A DNA stretch of 64,000 nt from Polyangiaceae bacterium (GCA_025937785.1 JAICQQ010000003.1:1-64000), one strand, 5' to 3'; positions 8,231 to 16,056 are shown, counted from the first letter of the stretch. The notes: generated by a model from the letters alone, not told the origin. Translations and numbers: made by a program.

Positions 8231-8986
8231 ATGCCGGCCCCAGGCAAAGCCCCCCCCGAAACCGCGGAAGTGTGGTTGCGCAAGGCGACGCTGGCACCGC
8301 TCTCCCGCGAACGGGCGAGCTTCGCTCGTAAGGGGCTACGAGCGCGGGGGGGGCGTGATCCGACGCTGCGCGCCATGCTGCTTCGCCAGCTTTACTTGGC
8401 GTACATGGAAGATCGCCTGTTCCAGAAGGCGCTCAAAGTGGCCCAGGATATCGTCGCCCTCGACGTCATGCCGGATGTCGCCCGGCAAGACGCGGCCCGT
8501 GCCTGCCTCGGCTTGGATGCGGTGGACGACGCCGTCGGTCACCTGCGGCTCGCGTGCCGCGTGTGCCCGCCGTCGCGGCGGGCCTTCCACTCGTGGACGC
8601 TGGGCAGCGTTTACTATCTCGCCGAACGCTATCATGAGGCAATCGCGGCCTTCCGTAAGGCGGCGACCTGGGGCACCAGCGACAAGCCCCTCTATCGTGC
8701 GCAACTGGCGCTCGCGACGCTCGCGGTCGGACAGACGGTAGACGACCTGGAAGGTCTGCGGGACGCGCTCGACGACGCGCCGTGTGGTCAAGGGTACGGC
8801 AAGTTCGTGCTCGGCGAGCTCGCGTACTACCTCGGAGATCTCGATGAAGCACACGCGTGCCTGGGATCGTTCGTCAAACGTACGGCAGGTGGTCGCGTCG
8901 CGCTGCAGGTGGCCCTCGAGCGCGAGCTCGAGAAGGCGCGCGCCCTGCTGGGGCGCCTGGACGAAGCGCGTATGAAGCGGGCTTGA
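8231..8986 (+). CDS. TPR-repeat protein
   Basis: A 251-residue soluble, all-helical protein with tetratricopeptide-like repeats (for example LGSVYYLAERYHEAIAAFRKA and LGELAYYLGDLDEAHACLGS). These normally form protein-protein interaction scaffolds. There is no signal peptide, so it is probably cytosolic. The ATG at 8231 lies 95 bp from the divergent lipoprotein start; the open frame extends further upstream only across that gene. No partner can be named. DsbD follows 68 bp downstream on the same strand. Confidence 0.75.
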   Translation: MPAPGKAPPETAEVWLRKATLAPLSRERASFARKGLRARGGRDPTLRAMLLRQLYLAYMEDRLFQKALKVAQDIVALDVMPDVARQDAARACLGLDAVDDAVGHLRLACRVCPPSRRAFHSWTLGSVYYLAERYHEAIAAFRKAATWGTSDKPLYRAQLALATLAVGQTVDDLEGLRDALDDAPCGQGYGKFVLGELAYYLGDLDEAHACLGSFVKRTAGGRVALQVALERELEKARALLGRLDEARMKRA

Positions 8987-9054
8987 CTGCGCAGCGCTGG
9001 CCCCCAATAAAACCCCGAAGCACCGCTGGGTTGTTTCCACTAGTACTAAAAACG

Positions 9055-10359
9055 ATGCGTCCCCAAGCCTCGATAGCGTTTGCCGGCATTCCCTTCGTTC
9101 TGGCGCTGTCGTCGGTGGCGCACGCGACCACCGAACCCGACCTGTTCACTCAGGCGCTGGCGAAGGGGCCGTTGTACGCGGCTGGCGCGGCGGTGCTGGG
9201 GGGTCTGGCCGTGAGCCTGACGCCGTGCGTGTACCCCATGGTGGCCGTCACCGTCAGCGCGTTTGGCGCGCGCGAAGCGAAGAGCCGCTGGGAAGGGACC
9301 AAGCTCTCCGCCGCCTTCATGCTGGGTATCGCTTGCATGTTCACGCCGCTCGGCGTGATCGCGGGGCTCACCGGCAGCGTGTTCGGCGCCGTGCTGCAAA
9401 ACCCGTGGGTCGTGCTGGGCATGGCTGGCTTGTTCCTGGCGATGGCGGCCTCGATGTTTGGAGCGTTCGAGATGACGTTGCCGTCGTCGCTCACCAACAA
9501 GCTGGCGACGATCGGGGGCATTGGTTACAAGGGTGCGTTCGGCCTGGGCTTCGTCTGCGGGGTCATTGCGGCGCCATGCTCGGGACCGGTGTTGACGGGC
9601 ATCCTCACGTGGATCGCGAATACCCAAAGCGCGCCTCTGGGCGGCGCGGCCATGGCAGCATTTTCACTGGGGCTTGGGTTCCCGTTCTTTCTGGTGGGAG
9701 CGTTCGCGGTTCAGCTGCCGAAGAGCGGCCCCTGGATGGTGCACGTGAAGTCGGTGCTGGGCATCGTGCTCATCGTCGTTGCCCTGTACTTCATCAACCT
9801 GCATTTTCCAGTCATCTCGAGCTTCGCACATCCCGGCGTCGGCTTCTTCGTGGCAGCGGGCGTGGCCGTGGGCGTGGGCGTGCTGCTGGGCGGGGTGCAT
9901 CGCGACTTTGCCGAGCCCAGCAACGGAGGTCGCGTGCTCAAGGCGTTGGGCGTGCTGCTGATCAGCGGCGGGGCCTTTCTCTGCATCGCCGCGGCGCTCA
10001 AGCCCAGCGCCACACTCTCCTGGGAAAAAACCGACTACGTGCTGGCACGTGAGAAAGCCCTGGCTGCGGAGCGGCCGATGCTCGTCGACTTCACGGCGTC
10101 TTGGTGTGTCGCGTGCAAAGAGCTCGACAAACTCACGTTTTCTCACGACGCGGTCGAACGAGAGGCGGGCCGTTTCATCGCCGTGCGAGTCGACGCTACC
10201 GACGACGAAGACCCCAAGGTCGAAAAGGCACTGGCCGAGTTTCGCGTGAAGGGCCTGCCCACGGTCATCCTCTTCGACTCGGAGGGGCGCGAAGCCAGGC
10301 GCTTCAACGATTTCGTCGAGGCGGAGCCTTTCCTCGAGGCGTTGCGCAAGGTCAACTGA
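9055..10359 (+). CDS. DsbD-type thiol:disulfide interchange protein without the N-terminal alpha domain
   Basis: A 434-residue inner-membrane protein. A signal/first segment leads into the eight-helix DsbD/CcdA transmembrane domain, with the paired cysteines Cys58 (TPCVYP) and Cys175 (APCSGP). A C-terminal thioredoxin domain with CVAC (351-354) follows at about 320-434. It would carry electrons from cytosolic thioredoxin to periplasmic thiols for disulfide isomerisation or cytochrome c maturation. The periplasmic DsbD-alpha domain of E. coli is absent, so reductant must pass to separate partners. The SCO and cytochrome c genes of the next operon are plausible clients (inference). Confidence 0.92.
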   Translation: MRPQASIAFAGIPFVLALSSVAHATTEPDLFTQALAKGPLYAAGAAVLGGLAVSLTPCVYPMVAVTVSAFGAREAKSRWEGTKLSAAFMLGIACMFTPLGVIAGLTGSVFGAVLQNPWVVLGMAGLFLAMAASMFGAFEMTLPSSLTNKLATIGGIGYKGAFGLGFVCGVIAAPCSGPVLTGILTWIANTQSAPLGGAAMAAFSLGLGFPFFLVGAFAVQLPKSGPWMVHVKSVLGIVLIVVALYFINLHFPVISSFAHPGVGFFVAAGVAVGVGVLLGGVHRDFAEPSNGGRVLKALGVLLISGGAFLCIAAALKPSATLSWEKTDYVLAREKALAAERPMLVDFTASWCVACKELDKLTFSHDAVEREAGRFIAVRVDATDDEDPKVEKALAEFRVKGLPTVILFDSEGREARRFNDFVEAEPFLEALRKVN

Positions 10360-10499: not shown

Positions 10500-11729
10500 T
10501 CAAGATGCGCCGGCCAACGTGACCACCCACAGTGTTCCCACGATGGTCGTGGCGAGGGCAATCGGAAGCCCGGCCTTCAGGTGCTGCCAAAAACCGAGGC
10601 CACCCACGTCGCGCGCTGTCTCGGCCACGATGATGTTGGCGACCGAGCCCAGCAATGTCAGGTTTCCCGCGAAGGTGCTGGCCATGGCCAGCAACTGCCA
10701 ACCGAGCGTCGCATCACCCAGGGCGTTGACTTGATCGCGAACCACGAGGATGAACGGAACGTTGGACACCAGGTTCGAGCCCACCAAGAAGATCCCGGAA
10801 AGCCAGAACCCGTCCGCGAGCCCCTGGCCGTGCTCCGCGAGCGGAAACCTGGCGAAGAATGCCGCAGGGGCGCCGCTCTTCTCGAGGGCTGCCACGACGA
10901 CGAACAGGCCCGCGAAGAACAGCAGCAGCGTCCAATCGATGCGAGGCCAGAGCTCGCGAGTATCACGCCGGTGGAGCAGCATCAGCGCCACGAATCCGGC
11001 AGCCGCCGCCCAGGCTAGGTTGGCTCCCAAGGCGTAGGCGATCGACGTCAAGAACACGACGCCGAGACTCATGCGGGCCGCGCGCGAGATCGGTTCCACG
11101 CGTCTCGGAGGCGTGAGCGTGGCGCTCCTCAGTGGTTCGCGAAAGAGCAGCCCCAAAATCAGATGGTTCAGCGCCAGGCCCAGCACCGCGACCGGCGCCA
11201 TCACCAGCAAGAACTCGCGATACACGAGGCCCCCGAGCAGCCCGCACAGCATGTTTTGGGGGTTTCCGACCAGCGTGGCCACGCTGCCGGTGTTCGCGGC
11301 GGTCGCCAGCGCCAACAGAAACGGCGTTGCCGGCAGCCGGTGTTCGCGAACGATGCGAACCACCACGGGCGCTCCCAGCACACACACGGCGTCGTTGGTG
11401 ATCGCCGCGCTCAGCATGCCCGCTCCCCACACGATCATTCCGAGCAAACGTCGAGGCGTGCGCGCCCACGCGACGAGCTGGGTCTCGACCTGATCGAAAA
11501 AACCATCGACGGCCAGAAATGCGCCCATGCCCATCACGCCAAACAGCAGCAACAGCGTCGCGCTGTCCACCGCGGCCAGCGCAGCTTCTGGCGTCAGAGC
11601 ACCCAGTGCCACGCAGGCCACGGCGCCAGCGAGCGCTATCGCCGGCCGATCGAACCCCAGGAGCCGAAGCCGCCGCGCGGAGACCAAGAGGTAGGTCACG
11701 ACGAAGATGGCGATGCCCACGGTGTTCAA
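10500..11729 (-). CDS. SLC13/ArsB-type ion transporter superfamily permease
   Basis: A 409-residue polytopic inner-membrane protein with about 11-12 hydrophobic segments, of the ion transporter superfamily (arsenite/Na+/dicarboxylate/NhaD-like). The two re-entrant signatures appear as SAAITNDAVCVLGAP and, in the second half, SNLVSNVPFILVV. NTGSVATLVGNPQN lies between them. Family members move small anions or exchange Na+/H+; the substrate cannot be told. It starts 46 bp after the cytochrome c gene stop, so it may be the last gene of the ABC/SCO operon. Confidence 0.85.
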   Translation of the reverse strand: MNTVGIAIFVVTYLLVSARRLRLLGFDRPAIALAGAVACVALGALTPEAALAAVDSATLLLLFGVMGMGAFLAVDGFFDQVETQLVAWARTPRRLLGMIVWGAGMLSAAITNDAVCVLGAPVVVRIVREHRLPATPFLLALATAANTGSVATLVGNPQNMLCGLLGGLVYREFLLVMAPVAVLGLALNHLILGLLFREPLRSATLTPPRRVEPISRAARMSLGVVFLTSIAYALGANLAWAAAAGFVALMLLHRRDTRELWPRIDWTLLLFFAGLFVVVAALEKSGAPAAFFARFPLAEHGQGLADGFWLSGIFLVGSNLVSNVPFILVVRDQVNALGDATLGWQLLAMASTFAGNLTLLGSVANIIVAETARDVGGLGFWQHLKAGLPIALATTIVGTLWVVTLAGAS

Positions 11730-11775
11730 GGCGGCGGGACTTTAGCGTCGCCGCGTGTCTCTGACCAGCGGAGCT

Positions 11776-12144
11776 TCAGCGGATGGATGCCGCGGCGGTC
11801 GCCGTAGGGGTTCCCGCGGTCACCCAGCTCGCGAGGACCTGGCGCTCCGCGTCGGTCATGCCGGTCTTGTTCATGAGCGGCATGCTGCGGTCCAGGGCCA
11901 CGCGAACTCGGATGCGTTCGGCGTGCTCGACCATGTCGGTCGCCGTGTCGAACACGATGCCACCCGGCGCGATCGGAAAGGCGCGCTCCGTGGGGTGTTT
12001 CGAATGGCAGCTGATGCAGTGCTCGTCGACCAGGCGGCGTGCCTCGGAATACGCAGGAGCGCGCGGCGCGGTGTCACACGCCGCCAGCCACCACGCCACG
12101 AGGCTCCCTCCCGCGAGCCCGACGAGCCGCCTCGCCGGGGACAC
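11776..12144 (-). CDS. Cytochrome c lipoprotein, PuuD C-terminal domain type
   Basis: A 122-residue monohaem cytochrome c anchored as a lipoprotein (lipobox Cys23, WLAAC). The haem site is CISCH (43-47). Sequence after it (PIAPGGIVFDTATDM, RSMPLMNKTGMTDAER) closely resembles the cytochrome domain at the C-terminus of urate hydroxylase PuuD, including the likely axial Met, but the PuuD membrane domain is absent. GTG at 12144 was chosen because it sits just after the ATPase stop and yields a clean signal; a TTG at 12156 is an alternative. Likely role: periplasmic electron carrier for this operon. Confidence 0.8.
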   Translation of the reverse strand: MSPARRLVGLAGGSLVAWWLAACDTAPRAPAYSEARRLVDEHCISCHSKHPTERAFPIAPGGIVFDTATDMVEHAERIRVRVALDRSMPLMNKTGMTDAERQVLASWVTAGTPTATAAASIR

Positions 12145-12145
12145 C

Positions 12146-12955
12146 TCACAATCCAAGTTCGCTCAGTACCTGCTCTTTGAGCGACTGAGCCTCGGGGCTG
12201 GTCAGCTTGCGCGGGTGAGCGAGGTCGACGTCGATGCTACACTTGATGGTCGCCGGTCGCGGTGAGAGCACCAAAATGCGATCGGCCAGGTGAATCGCTT
12301 CCTCGACGTCGTGCGTGATGAGGACCAGCGTCTGCTCTTGTTCGCGGAGCAGCTGCAAGAGCTCGTTGCGCATGCGCAGGCTCATCAGGGCATCCAACGC
12401 CGAGAACGGCTCATCCATGTACAAGATCTCGGGCTTCACCGCGAAGGCGCGGGCCAACTCCACACGCTTCAGCATGCCGCCGGAAAGTTCGTGAGGGTAC
12501 TGTCGCTCGAAGCCTTTGAGACCGACCAGTTCGGTGAAGCGTGCCGCGATCGCGAGCCGCTCGGCGTGGGTACCCGTGTTCAGGCCGAACGCGATGTTCT
12601 CTTGCACCGAGAGCCAAGGGAACACCGACCCCTGCTGCGAAATGACGATACCTTTGCGATCCGCCCGCCGCCGCGGCACGCCGTCGATGAGGACTCCCCC
12701 GCGATCGGCCGGATTGAACCCAGCCAAAATACCGAGCAGCGTGGACTTGCCGCAGCCCGAGGGGCCGACGATGGCAACGGTTTGACCGGCGGCCACCGAG
12801 AAGCTGATGCCTCCCACCACCTCGAGCACACCGGCATCGGTGGGGAAGCTTTTGTAGATCTCGTCCACGACGATCTTGTGTGCCGCGCGGGCCGGAGCCT
12901 CGGACACTGGAGCTTCAGCAGCCCAGGTCAGAGGGAACGTTGCATCATTTGACAT
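12146..12955 (-). CDS. NitT/TauT-type ABC transporter ATP-binding protein
   Basis: A 269-residue ATPase of the nitrate/sulfonate/taurine/bicarbonate ABC importer group. Visible are Walker A GPSGCGKST (64-72), a Q-loop around SQQGS (106-110), signature LSGGM (157-161, with Met in place of the usual Gln), Walker B ILYMDE (177-182) and the H-loop LITHD. An N-terminal extension of ~27 residues precedes the domain. It overlaps the permease stop by 11 bp and would power import with that permease and the substrate-binding protein upstream in the operon. Confidence 0.93.
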   Translation of the reverse strand: MSNDATFPLTWAAEAPVSEAPARAAHKIVVDEIYKSFPTDAGVLEVVGGISFSVAAGQTVAIVGPSGCGKSTLLGILAGFNPADRGGVLIDGVPRRRADRKGIVISQQGSVFPWLSVQENIAFGLNTGTHAERLAIAARFTELVGLKGFERQYPHELSGGMLKRVELARAFAVKPEILYMDEPFSALDALMSLRMRNELLQLLREQEQTLVLITHDVEEAIHLADRILVLSPRPATIKCSIDVDLAHPRKLTSPEAQSLKEQVLSELGL

Positions 12956-13712
12956 ACTGCCACCTCACCGACTTGAGTCCTTCGAACGAGCGCATGAGTG
13001 AATCCAATAGGAGCCCGATGATGCCGATGATGACCATGCCTGCGATCACGAGGTCGTAGCGGTTGCCGGCGTTGCGCGAGTCCATGATCATGTAACCGAG
13101 CCCCGACTTCAGCGCGATCATCTCGGCGGCAACGACCACCAACCACGCCACGCCGACCCCGACGCGCATGCCAATCAAGACTTGTGGGAGCACTGCAGGC
13201 ACCACGACCCGGCGCATCGCCTCGAAGCGAGAGACGCCGAAGTTTTCGGCTGCCCGCAGGTAGCGCGGGTCGATGCTGTGCACACCCACGGCCGTCTGCA
13301 GAATCATGGGGAACACGGAGGCGATGAAGATCAGGAAGATCGGCGATGCGTTGCCGATGCCAAACCACAAGATCGCGATCGGAATCCAGGCGATCGGCGA
13401 GATTGGCCGCAGCATCTGAAAAACCGGGTTCAGCGTCATGTAGACGGAGTTGACGCGGCCCATCCACAGCCCGAGCGGAATGGCCACCACGAAGGCGAGC
13501 AGGAAACCCGCACCGACGCGCATGAGTGACGCGCCAATATGATCCCAGAGCGTGCCGTCGTTGATCAACTCGACGGTCCCCGTCACGACTTGCCAGGGTG
13601 TCGGGAAGATGACGCTGCCGCTGCGTACCACCGCGGCCCACCACACGGAAACCAGCAGCGCCAGCAGCACCGAGGGCAGGAATAGTGATTTGGCAGTGAG
13701 ACGGGTTCGCAT
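12945..13712 (-). CDS. NitT/TauT-type ABC transporter permease
   Basis: A 255-residue inner-membrane permease with about six membrane segments and the BPD_transp_1 EAA loop (AAENFGVSRFEAMRRVVVPAV, trimmed motif around residues 150-175). It pairs with the downstream ATPase. The ATG at 13712 follows an AGGAGAA Shine-Dalgarno, and the longer upstream frame overlaps the cupredoxin gene. The substrate is not determined, but the family mostly imports small oxyanions, sulfonates, bicarbonate, cyanate or pyrimidine-like compounds. Confidence 0.92.
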   Translation of the reverse strand: MRTRLTAKSLFLPSVLLALLVSVWWAAVVRSGSVIFPTPWQVVTGTVELINDGTLWDHIGASLMRVGAGFLLAFVVAIPLGLWMGRVNSVYMTLNPVFQMLRPISPIAWIPIAILWFGIGNASPIFLIFIASVFPMILQTAVGVHSIDPRYLRAAENFGVSRFEAMRRVVVPAVLPQVLIGMRVGVGVAWLVVVAAEMIALKSGLGYMIMDSRNAGNRYDLVIAGMVIIGIIGLLLDSLMRSFEGLKSVRWQYVK

Positions 13713-13720
13713 ACGTTCTC

Positions 13721-14155
13721 CTAGAGCGACACTATATGCGCCGCGAAATGCTCGGCTCGGTACCTGAGCCGTGACCAAGGCGTATTCGGCCCCTCGGCGA
13801 CGATGACCTTCATTTGACCGCTCGTGTGCGCGGTGCATTCGAACTGGTACTCGGAGGCCACGTTGAACGGCAGGCGGAAGCTCTGACCGGGCATGATCAA
13901 GGTCGGTCCGAAGATCTGCGGCACGCTGTCGAGGTTACGGAGCACCAATACGTCGCGTAGCCCGAGCACCAAGCGGATTTCGGAGGGCAGCACTTCGGCG
14001 TCGACGCCCGCGCGCCGCATTTCCCAAGTGCCGCTGGGGATTTCGAAGAGTGCGTCGCGAGACTCGACCGGCACCGGGACCAGCGCGGCGGCGAGCGTCA
14101 CACCGCCGATCGCGACCAGCGCCACCCCCAGGGCCTTCGAACGTGCAAGCTTCAT
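13721..14155 (-). CDS. Cupredoxin-like periplasmic protein lacking one copper ligand
   Basis: A 144-residue protein with an N-terminal signal/anchor (about 8-25) and a cupredoxin-like beta fold. The C-terminal ligand loop has Cys107, His110 and Met115 (ECTAHTSGQM). The usual first histidine in the N-x-D-x-x-P-H segment is replaced by Gln80 (RNLDSVPQIFG), so a normal type-1 site would be incomplete. It overlaps the SCO gene by 4 bp (ATGA). It may bind copper differently, hand it over, or be a structural relic. Confidence 0.75.
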   Translation of the reverse strand: MKLARSKALGVALVAIGGVTLAAALVPVPVESRDALFEIPSGTWEMRRAGVDAEVLPSEIRLVLGLRDVLVLRNLDSVPQIFGPTLIMPGQSFRLPFNVASEYQFECTAHTSGQMKVIVAEGPNTPWSRLRYRAEHFAAHIVSL

Positions 14156-14757
14156 GTGTCTAGCAGCCGCTTCACGTCATGGAGGATGTCAGCCGCTGGC
14201 TCCCCGAATGGTACCAGTAGACGCAGCACACCCTGCTTGTCGATCAAGTAGATGGATGTGGAGTGGTGCACCTCGTACTGGAGCTTCTCGTTCTCGGACT
14301 GGACCTTGTTCGCGACCACCCCGTAGGCGTGCTGCAGAGCGTCGAGCTTCGACGAGTCGCCGGTCGCCCCGCGGAAGTCCGCGTCGAAGAAGCCCAAGAA
14401 CTCGCGCAGGCGTCCGGGGGTGTCTCGTTCGGGATCGACCGTGACGAACACCACCTGCAATTCTTTCGAGAGATCACCCAGACTCTTGTCCACATCTGCC
14501 AGGCGGCTGAGAGTCACCGGGCAAATGCGGGGGCAATGGCTGAACCCGAACGCCAGCGCGACCACCTTGCCACGGAAGTCGCGCAGCGCGATGGGCGAGC
14601 CATGCGACCCCTCCAGTTCGAAGTCGGGCGCTTCCCGCGGTGGATCGAAGACACCCGAACGGTAGCCCTCGCTCTTGCAGCCAGCGCCAAAGGTCCCGGC
14701 GAGCGCCAGCGCGACGAGTGCCAGGCGACGCTGCCAGGGATGACGTCGGTCCTTCAT
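14152..14757 (-). CDS. SCO1/SenC family copper-thioredoxin lipoprotein
   Basis: A 201-residue lipoprotein (lipobox GTFGAGC, Cys27) with a thioredoxin-fold SCO domain. The copper-binding CPRIC motif (Cys75, Cys79) and the distal His165 in HHSTSIYLID are intact. SCO proteins deliver copper to, or reduce cysteines of, CuA sites in cytochrome oxidase and N2O reductase. No oxidase gene is in the window. Its place between an ABC substrate-binding protein and a cupredoxin-like protein, with ATGA overlaps on both sides, indicates obligate co-expression. Confidence 0.92.
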   Translation of the reverse strand: MKDRRHPWQRRLALVALALAGTFGAGCKSEGYRSGVFDPPREAPDFELEGSHGSPIALRDFRGKVVALAFGFSHCPRICPVTLSRLADVDKSLGDLSKELQVVFVTVDPERDTPGRLREFLGFFDADFRGATGDSSKLDALQHAYGVVANKVQSENEKLQYEVHHSTSIYLIDKQGVLRLLVPFGEPAADILHDVKRLLDT

Positions 14758-15767
14758 AGCCGCACCTCGTGCGCCATCGCTGCCTTGGCGAACCGTTCGG
14801 TGACGTATTGCTCGTAGGGGGCCGGTGCCTTGAGCGTGCCGGCCTCCAGCGAGAGCTGCATCAGCTCGTCGAACTCTTCGCGGATCATCCGCAGGTCGCC
14901 GTAGGTCACCCGATCGGCGGGGTTATTCATGACGAACTGCAGAATGGACTTGTCTTGATTGAAGTACTGGCGCGTCGCTGCGATCTCGACGGCCTTGTCT
15001 CGGTTTCGCCTGGTCTTGTCGAGCCAGGCGCCGGCGCTCAGCACCCCGTTGACCAGCTCTTGCACCAGCTCGGGGGCATCGTTGATCAGCTCTTCGCGCA
15101 CGGTGAGCACGCAACAGATGTAGTTGCGCCATTCGTCGCGGGTCATCTTGAGCGGGATGGCGTAGCCTGCCTTCTGCGCCGCCGCGCCGAAGGGTTCACC
15201 GGTGCAGTAGGCGTCGACGGCTTTGGCGTAGAGCGCTGCCGGCATATCGGGGGGCGGCATTTCGACGAGCTCGATCTGCTCGACGCGCATCCCCTCTTCC
15301 TTCAGCATCTTCCGAAGAAACAGCAGATCGACCGCGAACCGGCTGGGGATAGCCACACGCTTGCCGGTGAGATCCTTGAATTTGCGATAGGGCGAGTCTT
15401 TGCGGACCATGATCACCGCCCCAGATCGGTGGCCCAGCGCCACGATCTTCACGGGAATCTTCTTGCTCGTGAGGTCCATGACGAGCGGGGCCAGCATGTA
15501 CGCCGCCTGGATCCGCCCCGCCATCAGGGACTCTTTGATCTCGGGCCAGCCGGAGTACTTCGAGTACTCGAACAGCCTTCCTTTCACGCTGCCCGTCTGT
15601 TGCTGCAGGAGTCGGGACGCGCAGGCAATGGGCAGCGTTAGGTTGCAGGTCACAGGCAACCCGCCCACTACCAAGGGGCTCGCTGGCGAGTTGTCCGACG
15701 AACTCTTGCAACCAAGAGCTACGGTAGCCGCTCCCAGCATGAAGCTTCGGCGAGTCGTCAGCGTCAT
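14754..15767 (-). CDS. NrtA/SsuA-like ABC substrate-binding lipoprotein
   Basis: A 337-residue periplasmic binding protein of the NitT/TauT group (NMT1-like fold). It begins with a twin-arginine-like TRRSFMLGAA signal and a Cys after ALG, so it may be Tat-exported and lipidated. Family features are the GGLPVTCNLTLPIA entry strand, GAVIMVRKDS, LTGKRVAIPS, VDAYCTGEPFG and NYICCVLTVREE. Several cysteines remain in the mature chain. ATG at 15767 and GTG at 15773 are both possible; neither has a strong Shine-Dalgarno. It is first in the operon and overlaps the SCO gene by 4 bp. The ligand is unknown. Confidence 0.88.
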   Translation of the reverse strand: MTLTTRRSFMLGAATVALGCKSSSDNSPASPLVVGGLPVTCNLTLPIACASRLLQQQTGSVKGRLFEYSKYSGWPEIKESLMAGRIQAAYMLAPLVMDLTSKKIPVKIVALGHRSGAVIMVRKDSPYRKFKDLTGKRVAIPSRFAVDLLFLRKMLKEEGMRVEQIELVEMPPPDMPAALYAKAVDAYCTGEPFGAAAQKAGYAIPLKMTRDEWRNYICCVLTVREELINDAPELVQELVNGVLSAGAWLDKTRRNRDKAVEIAATRQYFNQDKSILQFVMNNPADRVTYGDLRMIREEFDELMQLSLEAGTLKAPAPYEQYVTERFAKAAMAHEVRL

Positions 15768-16056
15768 ACTCACGCGAAGTGTAACTTCAGGTTGGTGTGA
15801 GACAAGGAACTTCTACTATGCTCATCAGTGCTGCTACCGACGCGGCGGGGGCATTTACAAGAACCGCCGTGAACGATCGTGTGTGCGCAGAACAGCTGGC
15901 GGAATTCGTCAGGGAGTGGGGCGTACTCCGAAATCACTCGCGCAAATCGCGGTGCTGGGCCGTTGCGAGCCCGCGGCGACGCTAGGTTACGGACGCCTTG
16001 CGAATGTCTAAAGACTCGGGCGTGTGAGCGGCGCTCGGGCTCGTGTATACCGAGCC

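Follow-up and report, generated by a model that had tools for sequence, protein, structure and literature searches.

A mobile gene module that combines a NitT/TauT-type ABC importer with SCO and cupredoxin proteins, a candidate route for uptake of copper or a similar soft metal

Organization of the locus

We analyzed a 64,000-nt stretch of DNA from a Polyangiaceae bacterium (the window), in which seven minus-strand open reading frames (ORFs) at positions 10500–15773 bring together an ATP-binding cassette (ABC) importer of the NitT/TauT type, an SCO protein, a cupredoxin, a cytochrome c and a further permease. The first five genes form a conserved unit, with genes 6 and 7 lying outside it, and we tentatively propose that this module serves the capture and uptake of copper or another soft metal. 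An earlier note, made from the sequence alone, had described seven tightly packed genes on one strand, and this description holds: all of the ORFs were found, four junctions being overlaps (4, 4, 11 and 11 bp) and the other two short gaps (8 and 46 bp).

The first gene (14754–15773) encodes a NitT/TauT (NMT1_2) substrate-binding protein (SBP) with an RR signal; its start codon is GTG, and a Met is also available at 15767. It is followed by the genes for a SCO1/SenC protein (14152–14757), which has relatives in the PDB, and for a cupredoxin with an N-terminal membrane helix (13721–14155). The NitT/TauT-type permease (12945–13712) and ATPase (12146–12955) complete the core. A longer permease ORF from 13838 was rejected as an over-extension, since an ATG preceded by AGGAG places the start at 13712; with this start, the permease and cupredoxin genes no longer seem to overlap by 118 bp. 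The last two genes, both starting with TTG, encode a short PuuD-type mono-haem cytochrome c with a CxxCH motif (11776–12156) and, co-directional and separated from it by the 46-bp gap, a CitMHS/SLC13-type permease (10500–11729).

Pfam matches above cut-off were obtained for NMT1_2 (113 bits), SCO1-SenC (135 bits; cut-off 22.8), BPD_transp_1 (79 bits), ABC_tran (102 bits) and CitMHS (191 bits), and matches below cut-off for Copper-bind in the cupredoxin (17.0 bits) and Cytochrome_CBB3 in the cytochrome (21.5 bits). None of the NCBIfam equivalog models reached its cut-off with the window proteins. The NMT1-type SBP, BPD_transp_1 permease and ABC ATPase that together define a NitT/TauT ABC importer are all present.

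Conservation and distribution of the five-gene module

A scan of ~85,000 species genomes with the SBP identified 80 loci (65–78% identity). The order SBP-SCO-cupredoxin-permease-ATPase on one strand is found in 72 of these, with tight or overlapping junctions between the core genes. Seven of the other eight are broken at contig ends, and the last, the Acidobacteria locus L082, has no permease and ATPase genes there. Such a conserved five-gene order is well beyond chance expectation. The link between a NitT/TauT-type importer and the SCO and cupredoxin proteins, which the earlier note had pointed out, is real and conserved. The condition that the note had named for refuting its idea, unlinked genes in relatives, did not apply to the core when the genomes were compared. 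The proposed seven-gene operon, however, does not stand as a unit, as the cytochrome gene accompanies the module only in the window and in two Acidobacteria loci (L006 and L082), and the SLC13 permease gene only in the window among the 80 loci compared.

The module is hosted mostly by Burkholderiales, but also by Steroidobacter-type and other Gammaproteobacteria, by Acidobacteria and by Myxococcota-type genomes. It is rare: within the phylum of the window, 3 of 379 genomes encode a close SBP. Among sampled genomes, the cupredoxin is present in 1 of 247 from Acidobacteria and 2 of 250 from Burkholderiales, where one has a degenerate copy only. The five proteins diverge in a correlated manner (r 0.62–0.85 for 58 complete loci and the window, uncorrected for relatedness); the SBP and permease change most slowly (mean identity 75 and 77%), and the SCO and cupredoxin proteins fastest (54 and 60%). 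In a tree of the concatenated proteins, the window groups with the Acidobacteria locus L006, a pairing that would agree with horizontal spread of the module. SBP relatives on plasmids share <32% identity among the matches listed, and the two inspected are without SCO. In one locus, an alginate-export-type outer-membrane porin gene (L033:6375-8009) sits between the cupredoxin and permease genes. The literature searched yielded no publication on operons of SCO and NitT genes or on a combination of these five genes.

Substrate-binding protein

Sequence and fold matches place the SBP in the SsuA/TauA/NrtA/CmpA/HMP/PQQ-binding fold family. Thr42-Cys43-Asn44, His115-Arg116, Ser144-Arg145, Asp176-Met177, Cys190, Glu193 and Cys220-Cys221 are retained in all 81 module SBPs. 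The best match of known structure is a protein from S. aureus (PDB 3un6), with an E-value of 1.6e-39 by sequence and of 1.3e-25 by Foldseek with the AlphaFold2 (AF2) model. It shares the GHH/GHR, EPFG and CCVL motifs with the module SBPs, but has histidines at the positions of Cys43 and Ser144. No function for this protein was found in the papers searched. Based on the secondary structure of the model and the known architecture of the fold, we take Cys43, His115, Ser144, Asp176 and Glu193 to be located in loops of the ligand cleft.

SCO and cupredoxin proteins

The SCO protein contains the Cys-x3-Cys motif and distal histidine expected of SCO1/SenC proteins, and these copper ligands are highly conserved (Cys75 and Cys79 in 79/79, His165 in 78/79). 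The cupredoxin fold of its partner is confirmed by an AF2 model with a predicted local distance difference test (pLDDT) score of 94.5 and by 33 PDB matches at E <0.001, with cupredoxins on top. In the C107-x2-H110-x4-M115 motif of this protein, Cys107 and His110 are present in all 78 aligned sequences and Met115 in 74. A type 1 blue copper site consists of His, Cys, His and Met ligands. As the first histidine is replaced by a glutamine in 77 of the 78 cupredoxins (Gln80 in the window; the locus L079 has His), this is not a classical blue-copper site. The Gln/Cys/His/Met arrangement suggests a metal carrier or redox site instead.

Two Massilia-type loci (L109:10345-11184 and L110:9152-9625) contain degenerate cupredoxin paralogues adjoining a LON-like gene. 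These second copies were considered as a target enzyme of the module and rejected, being paralogues that have lost the His and Met ligands. In two other Massilia loci, the LON-like gene directly follows the full module.

Selenocysteine-containing and HMA-linked relatives

More distant SBP relatives from Acidobacteria and Myxococcota-type genomes (~35–45% identity to the window SBP) retain the PVTC, GHR, PPD and GEP motifs and the cysteine equivalent to Cys221. In three Acidobacteria genomes, an in-frame TGA is located exactly at the codon of Cys43 (PVTUHL; L138:8347, L139:8237, and L144, minus strand, ~8150). Selenocysteine (Sec) was seen only in these three distant relatives; all of the 81 module SBPs have Cys43. 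A clear tRNA-Sec was detected only in the three TGA-containing genomes of seven tested (62.9–71.4 bits, ARAGORN anticodon tca), while the four TGA-free genomes reach no more than 47.6 bits, near or below the cut-off (47) and similar to what other tRNAs score. In a search for SECIS elements by simple folding, a clear 7-pair hairpin emerged ~17 nt past the UGA in L144, and the signal was weak for the other two genes (L138 and L139). Both of the Sec-containing SBPs that were scanned fall short of the SaoX cut-off. These NitT/TauT-type SBPs of L138, L139 and L144 may constitute an undescribed selenoprotein subfamily.

In a second group of relatives (L116, L133, L134 and L135), the operon runs permease-ATPase-permease-SBP and ends with a gene for a small Tat-type protein that carries a CITC motif resembling HMA. 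One genome (G380) carries both arrangements: an SBP-SCO-cupredoxin-cytochrome locus without permease and ATPase genes, and an HMA-linked operon, whose permeases are the nearest in that genome to the window permease (48 and 55%). A conserved ~250-aa protein with several cysteines, presumably DUF169-like, follows the HMA-linked transporter in L134 (L134:9251-10006) and L133. Tryptophan-halogenase-like flavoproteins recur beside relatives of the transporter (L098:8078-10087, L132, L136, L144 and L116:3078-4829); in L098, the reading frame of the ATPase is fused to that of the flavoprotein.

Genomic context and copper enzymes of the hosts

No conserved flanking partner of the module was found in the loci examined, as the flanks vary by clade. 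Adjacent genes include GDH, glucokinase, CheB, EAL/GGDEF, GST, LON-like, glutathione reductase, and MsrA with DsbD; some of these neighbor lists are derived from greedy ORF calls and are rough. Thiol-redox genes recur loosely, as a DsbD-like gene in the window, as MsrB-DsbD-MsrA directly upstream of the module in Duganella and as a glutathione reductase gene in L029. The DsbD-like thiol transporter gene of the window (8857–10359, plus strand, with a likely start near 9057) is convergent with the operon, and the comparison of the 80 loci revealed no counterpart of it in any of them.

The earlier note had suggested looking elsewhere in the genome for a CuA oxidase, N2O reductase or thiocyanate dehydrogenase gene. 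Two CuA-type COX2 genes are present on contig C76, one of them close to a separate SCO gene. NosZ was not found in the window genome, the sole match being the CuA domain of COX2 (30 bits compared to a cut-off of 625). A partnership by neighborhood with NosZ or a CuA oxidase was rejected, as neither is linked to the module. Since host genomes contain 2–7 SCO homologues (eight genomes tested) and the C76 cluster has another SCO, the module SCO is not simply the sole SCO serving an oxidase. No thiocyanate dehydrogenase was noticed among the flanking genes examined, and no search aimed at this enzyme, with a model or sequence of it, was made.

Functional implications

The reading that we favor, while holding it as tentative, is a self-contained, horizontally spread module whose role is the capture and import of copper (as such or in a small complex) or of a comparable soft metal. 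Metal delivery, as raised in the earlier note, is thereby partly supported and the best-supported function, with the metal itself and the direction of flow being what we infer. Capture of copper or a soft metal appears most likely because the invariant Cys43 of the SBP is a selenocysteine in relatives. A soft metal is further indicated by the combination of Cys/Sec and His in the cleft, and by the occurrence of SCO, cupredoxin and HMA-like proteins, members of three families that deal with copper or metals like it, around this single type of importer. The reading also draws on the conserved gene order, the tight junctions, the correlated divergence and the lack of conserved neighbors, on the retained SCO and cupredoxin ligands, and on the two arrangements in G380. 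Also in its favor are the structure 3un6, zinc-bound by its PDB title, and the nearest NCBIfam ABC models, SaoA and SaoP (below cut-off), which come from a Sec-assisted organometallic system. Exported and probably tethered to the membrane, the SBP would hold the metal by Cys43, assisted by His115 and by acidic residues in the cleft. The SCO protein and the membrane-anchored cupredoxin would reduce, load or unload the metal in the periplasm; most likely, they exchange copper and keep reduced what the SBP hands to the permease, the three proteins presumably interacting as partners. The permease and ATPase would then power inward transport, and in the window version the PuuD-type cytochrome c may give or take electrons.

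Several observations weigh against this interpretation. The SsuA/TauA/NrtA relatives of the SBP bind organic or inorganic anions, and the halogenase-like genes near the relatives could point toward an organic ligand. The HMA-like protein scores below its Pfam cut-off (20.5 compared to 24.8) and accompanies just 4 of the ~10 operons of this related type. Neither the SaoX nor the SaoB model was matched at its cut-off. Finally, no convincing conserved regulator motif (FNR, CueR, Fur, sigma54, OxyR or Zur) was found upstream, those of copper regulators included.

Inward passage of copper across the bacterial inner membrane is poorly known. A 2020 review names CcoA, a major facilitator superfamily protein, as the first transporter for copper uptake to be identified in bacteria; where it treats ABC proteins, it deals with NosFY (PMC7558416). 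The module would, if our interpretation is correct, represent a new copper route through a mobile ABC-SCO-cupredoxin unit and a role of SCO proteins beyond oxidase assembly, and the Cys/Sec exchange in a ligand loop leads to a sharp prediction of soft-metal binding. A broader proposal, which we regard as possible but doubtful, is that the NitT/TauT superfamily contains a so far unrecognized class of copper-importing ABC systems. Cys, replaced by Sec in some Acidobacteria, would be the metal ligand of their SBPs, and their operons would add periplasmic copper carriers to the transporter, either SCO and a Gln-ligated cupredoxin, as in the mobile five-gene form, or a Tat-exported HMA-like protein.

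As the main rival, the system would import a small organic ligand, anionic or sulfur-containing, which would be handled covalently or by redox chemistry at the SBP cysteines, with the SCO and cupredoxin proteins acting as thiol or electron partners and not as copper suppliers. It holds this rank because characterized members of the fold family bind such ligands and halogenase-like genes recur near the relatives. The porin gene in L033 is also in its favor, as is the thiol oxidoreductase activity possible for SCO proteins (PMC7558416). The Cys, Sec and His residues of the cleft loops, however, are not known from the listed anion binders, and it is SCO, cupredoxin and HMA-like proteins that recur around the importer, with no linked catabolic enzyme. 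We consider this explanation unlikely.

The module might instead mature a copper enzyme encoded elsewhere, either a CuA oxidase or another cuproenzyme, with the SCO and cupredoxin proteins inserting copper and the importer supplying copper or an assembly ligand. SCO and ABC proteins serve oxidases and N2O reductase in this way (PMC7558416), and the window genome has its two COX2 genes. Such a role is rather improbable, as a cuproenzyme is linked in none of the loci examined, NosZ was not found in the window genome, additional SCO proteins are available in the C76 cluster and in the hosts generally, and the module is rare while CuA oxidases are common.

Less probable still is uptake or detoxification of an organometal or toxic soft metal (mercury, silver or a methylmetal), similar to the Sec-assisted organometallic (SAO) system to which SaoA and SaoP belong (PMC13188914). 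SaoA and SaoP are the top curated models for the ATPase and permease, SaoX ranks second for the SBP, and Sec occurs in the SBP relatives; but the scores are far under the cut-offs (SaoX 60/300, SaoA 189/360 and SaoP 183/295 bits), no MerB/SaoL-type lyase was recognized among the neighbors examined, and SCO and cupredoxin point to copper. Chance adjacency of unrelated genes would account for the SLC13 gene, present only in the window, but is refuted for the core by a gene order kept in 72 of 80 loci despite changing flanks.

Comparison with known systems

Judged by sequence, the module belongs to the NitT/TauT ABC superfamily, and its SCO protein is genuine. In SsuABC, TauABC, NrtABCD and CmpABCD, the SBP, permease and ATPase are of the same families and folds, but the module differs from these importers in its invariant Cys43, Cys221 and His115, in the SCO and cupredoxin genes within the operon and in having no linked genes of sulfonate or nitrate metabolism. 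The SAO system (SaoA, SaoP, SaoX and SaoB) provides the closest curated ABC models and has Sec-containing binding proteins, while Sec was seen in three distant relatives of the module SBPs and Cys43 in all 81 of the latter; at the curated cut-offs the module is not assigned to this system, with all scores below them and with SCO and cupredoxin in place of a recognizable SaoL-type lyase.

Compared to the SCO/PCuAC chaperones of oxidase assembly, the Cys-x3-Cys and His ligands of SCO are common to both, but the module SCO is tied to an importer, not to COX2, and its partner is a Gln/Cys/His/Met cupredoxin, not PCuAC. The parallel with thiocyanate dehydrogenase (TcDH) drawn in the earlier note is weak. 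NitT/TauT is mentioned in connection with a Thiobacillus cluster for thiocyanate hydrolase and not with TcDH (PMC5328954). For the TcDH cluster of Thioalkalivibrio, the same authors propose copper acquisition through an ABC transporter (PMC5328954); with four ABC subunits and the enzyme, it resembles the module only loosely. FtrB, Cupredoxin_1 and EfeO-domain cupredoxins likewise place a cupredoxin fold beside or inside a metal importer, but in the module the cupredoxin has glutamine for the first histidine in 77 of 78 cases and the importer is of the ABC type, in place of an Ftr/Efe permease.
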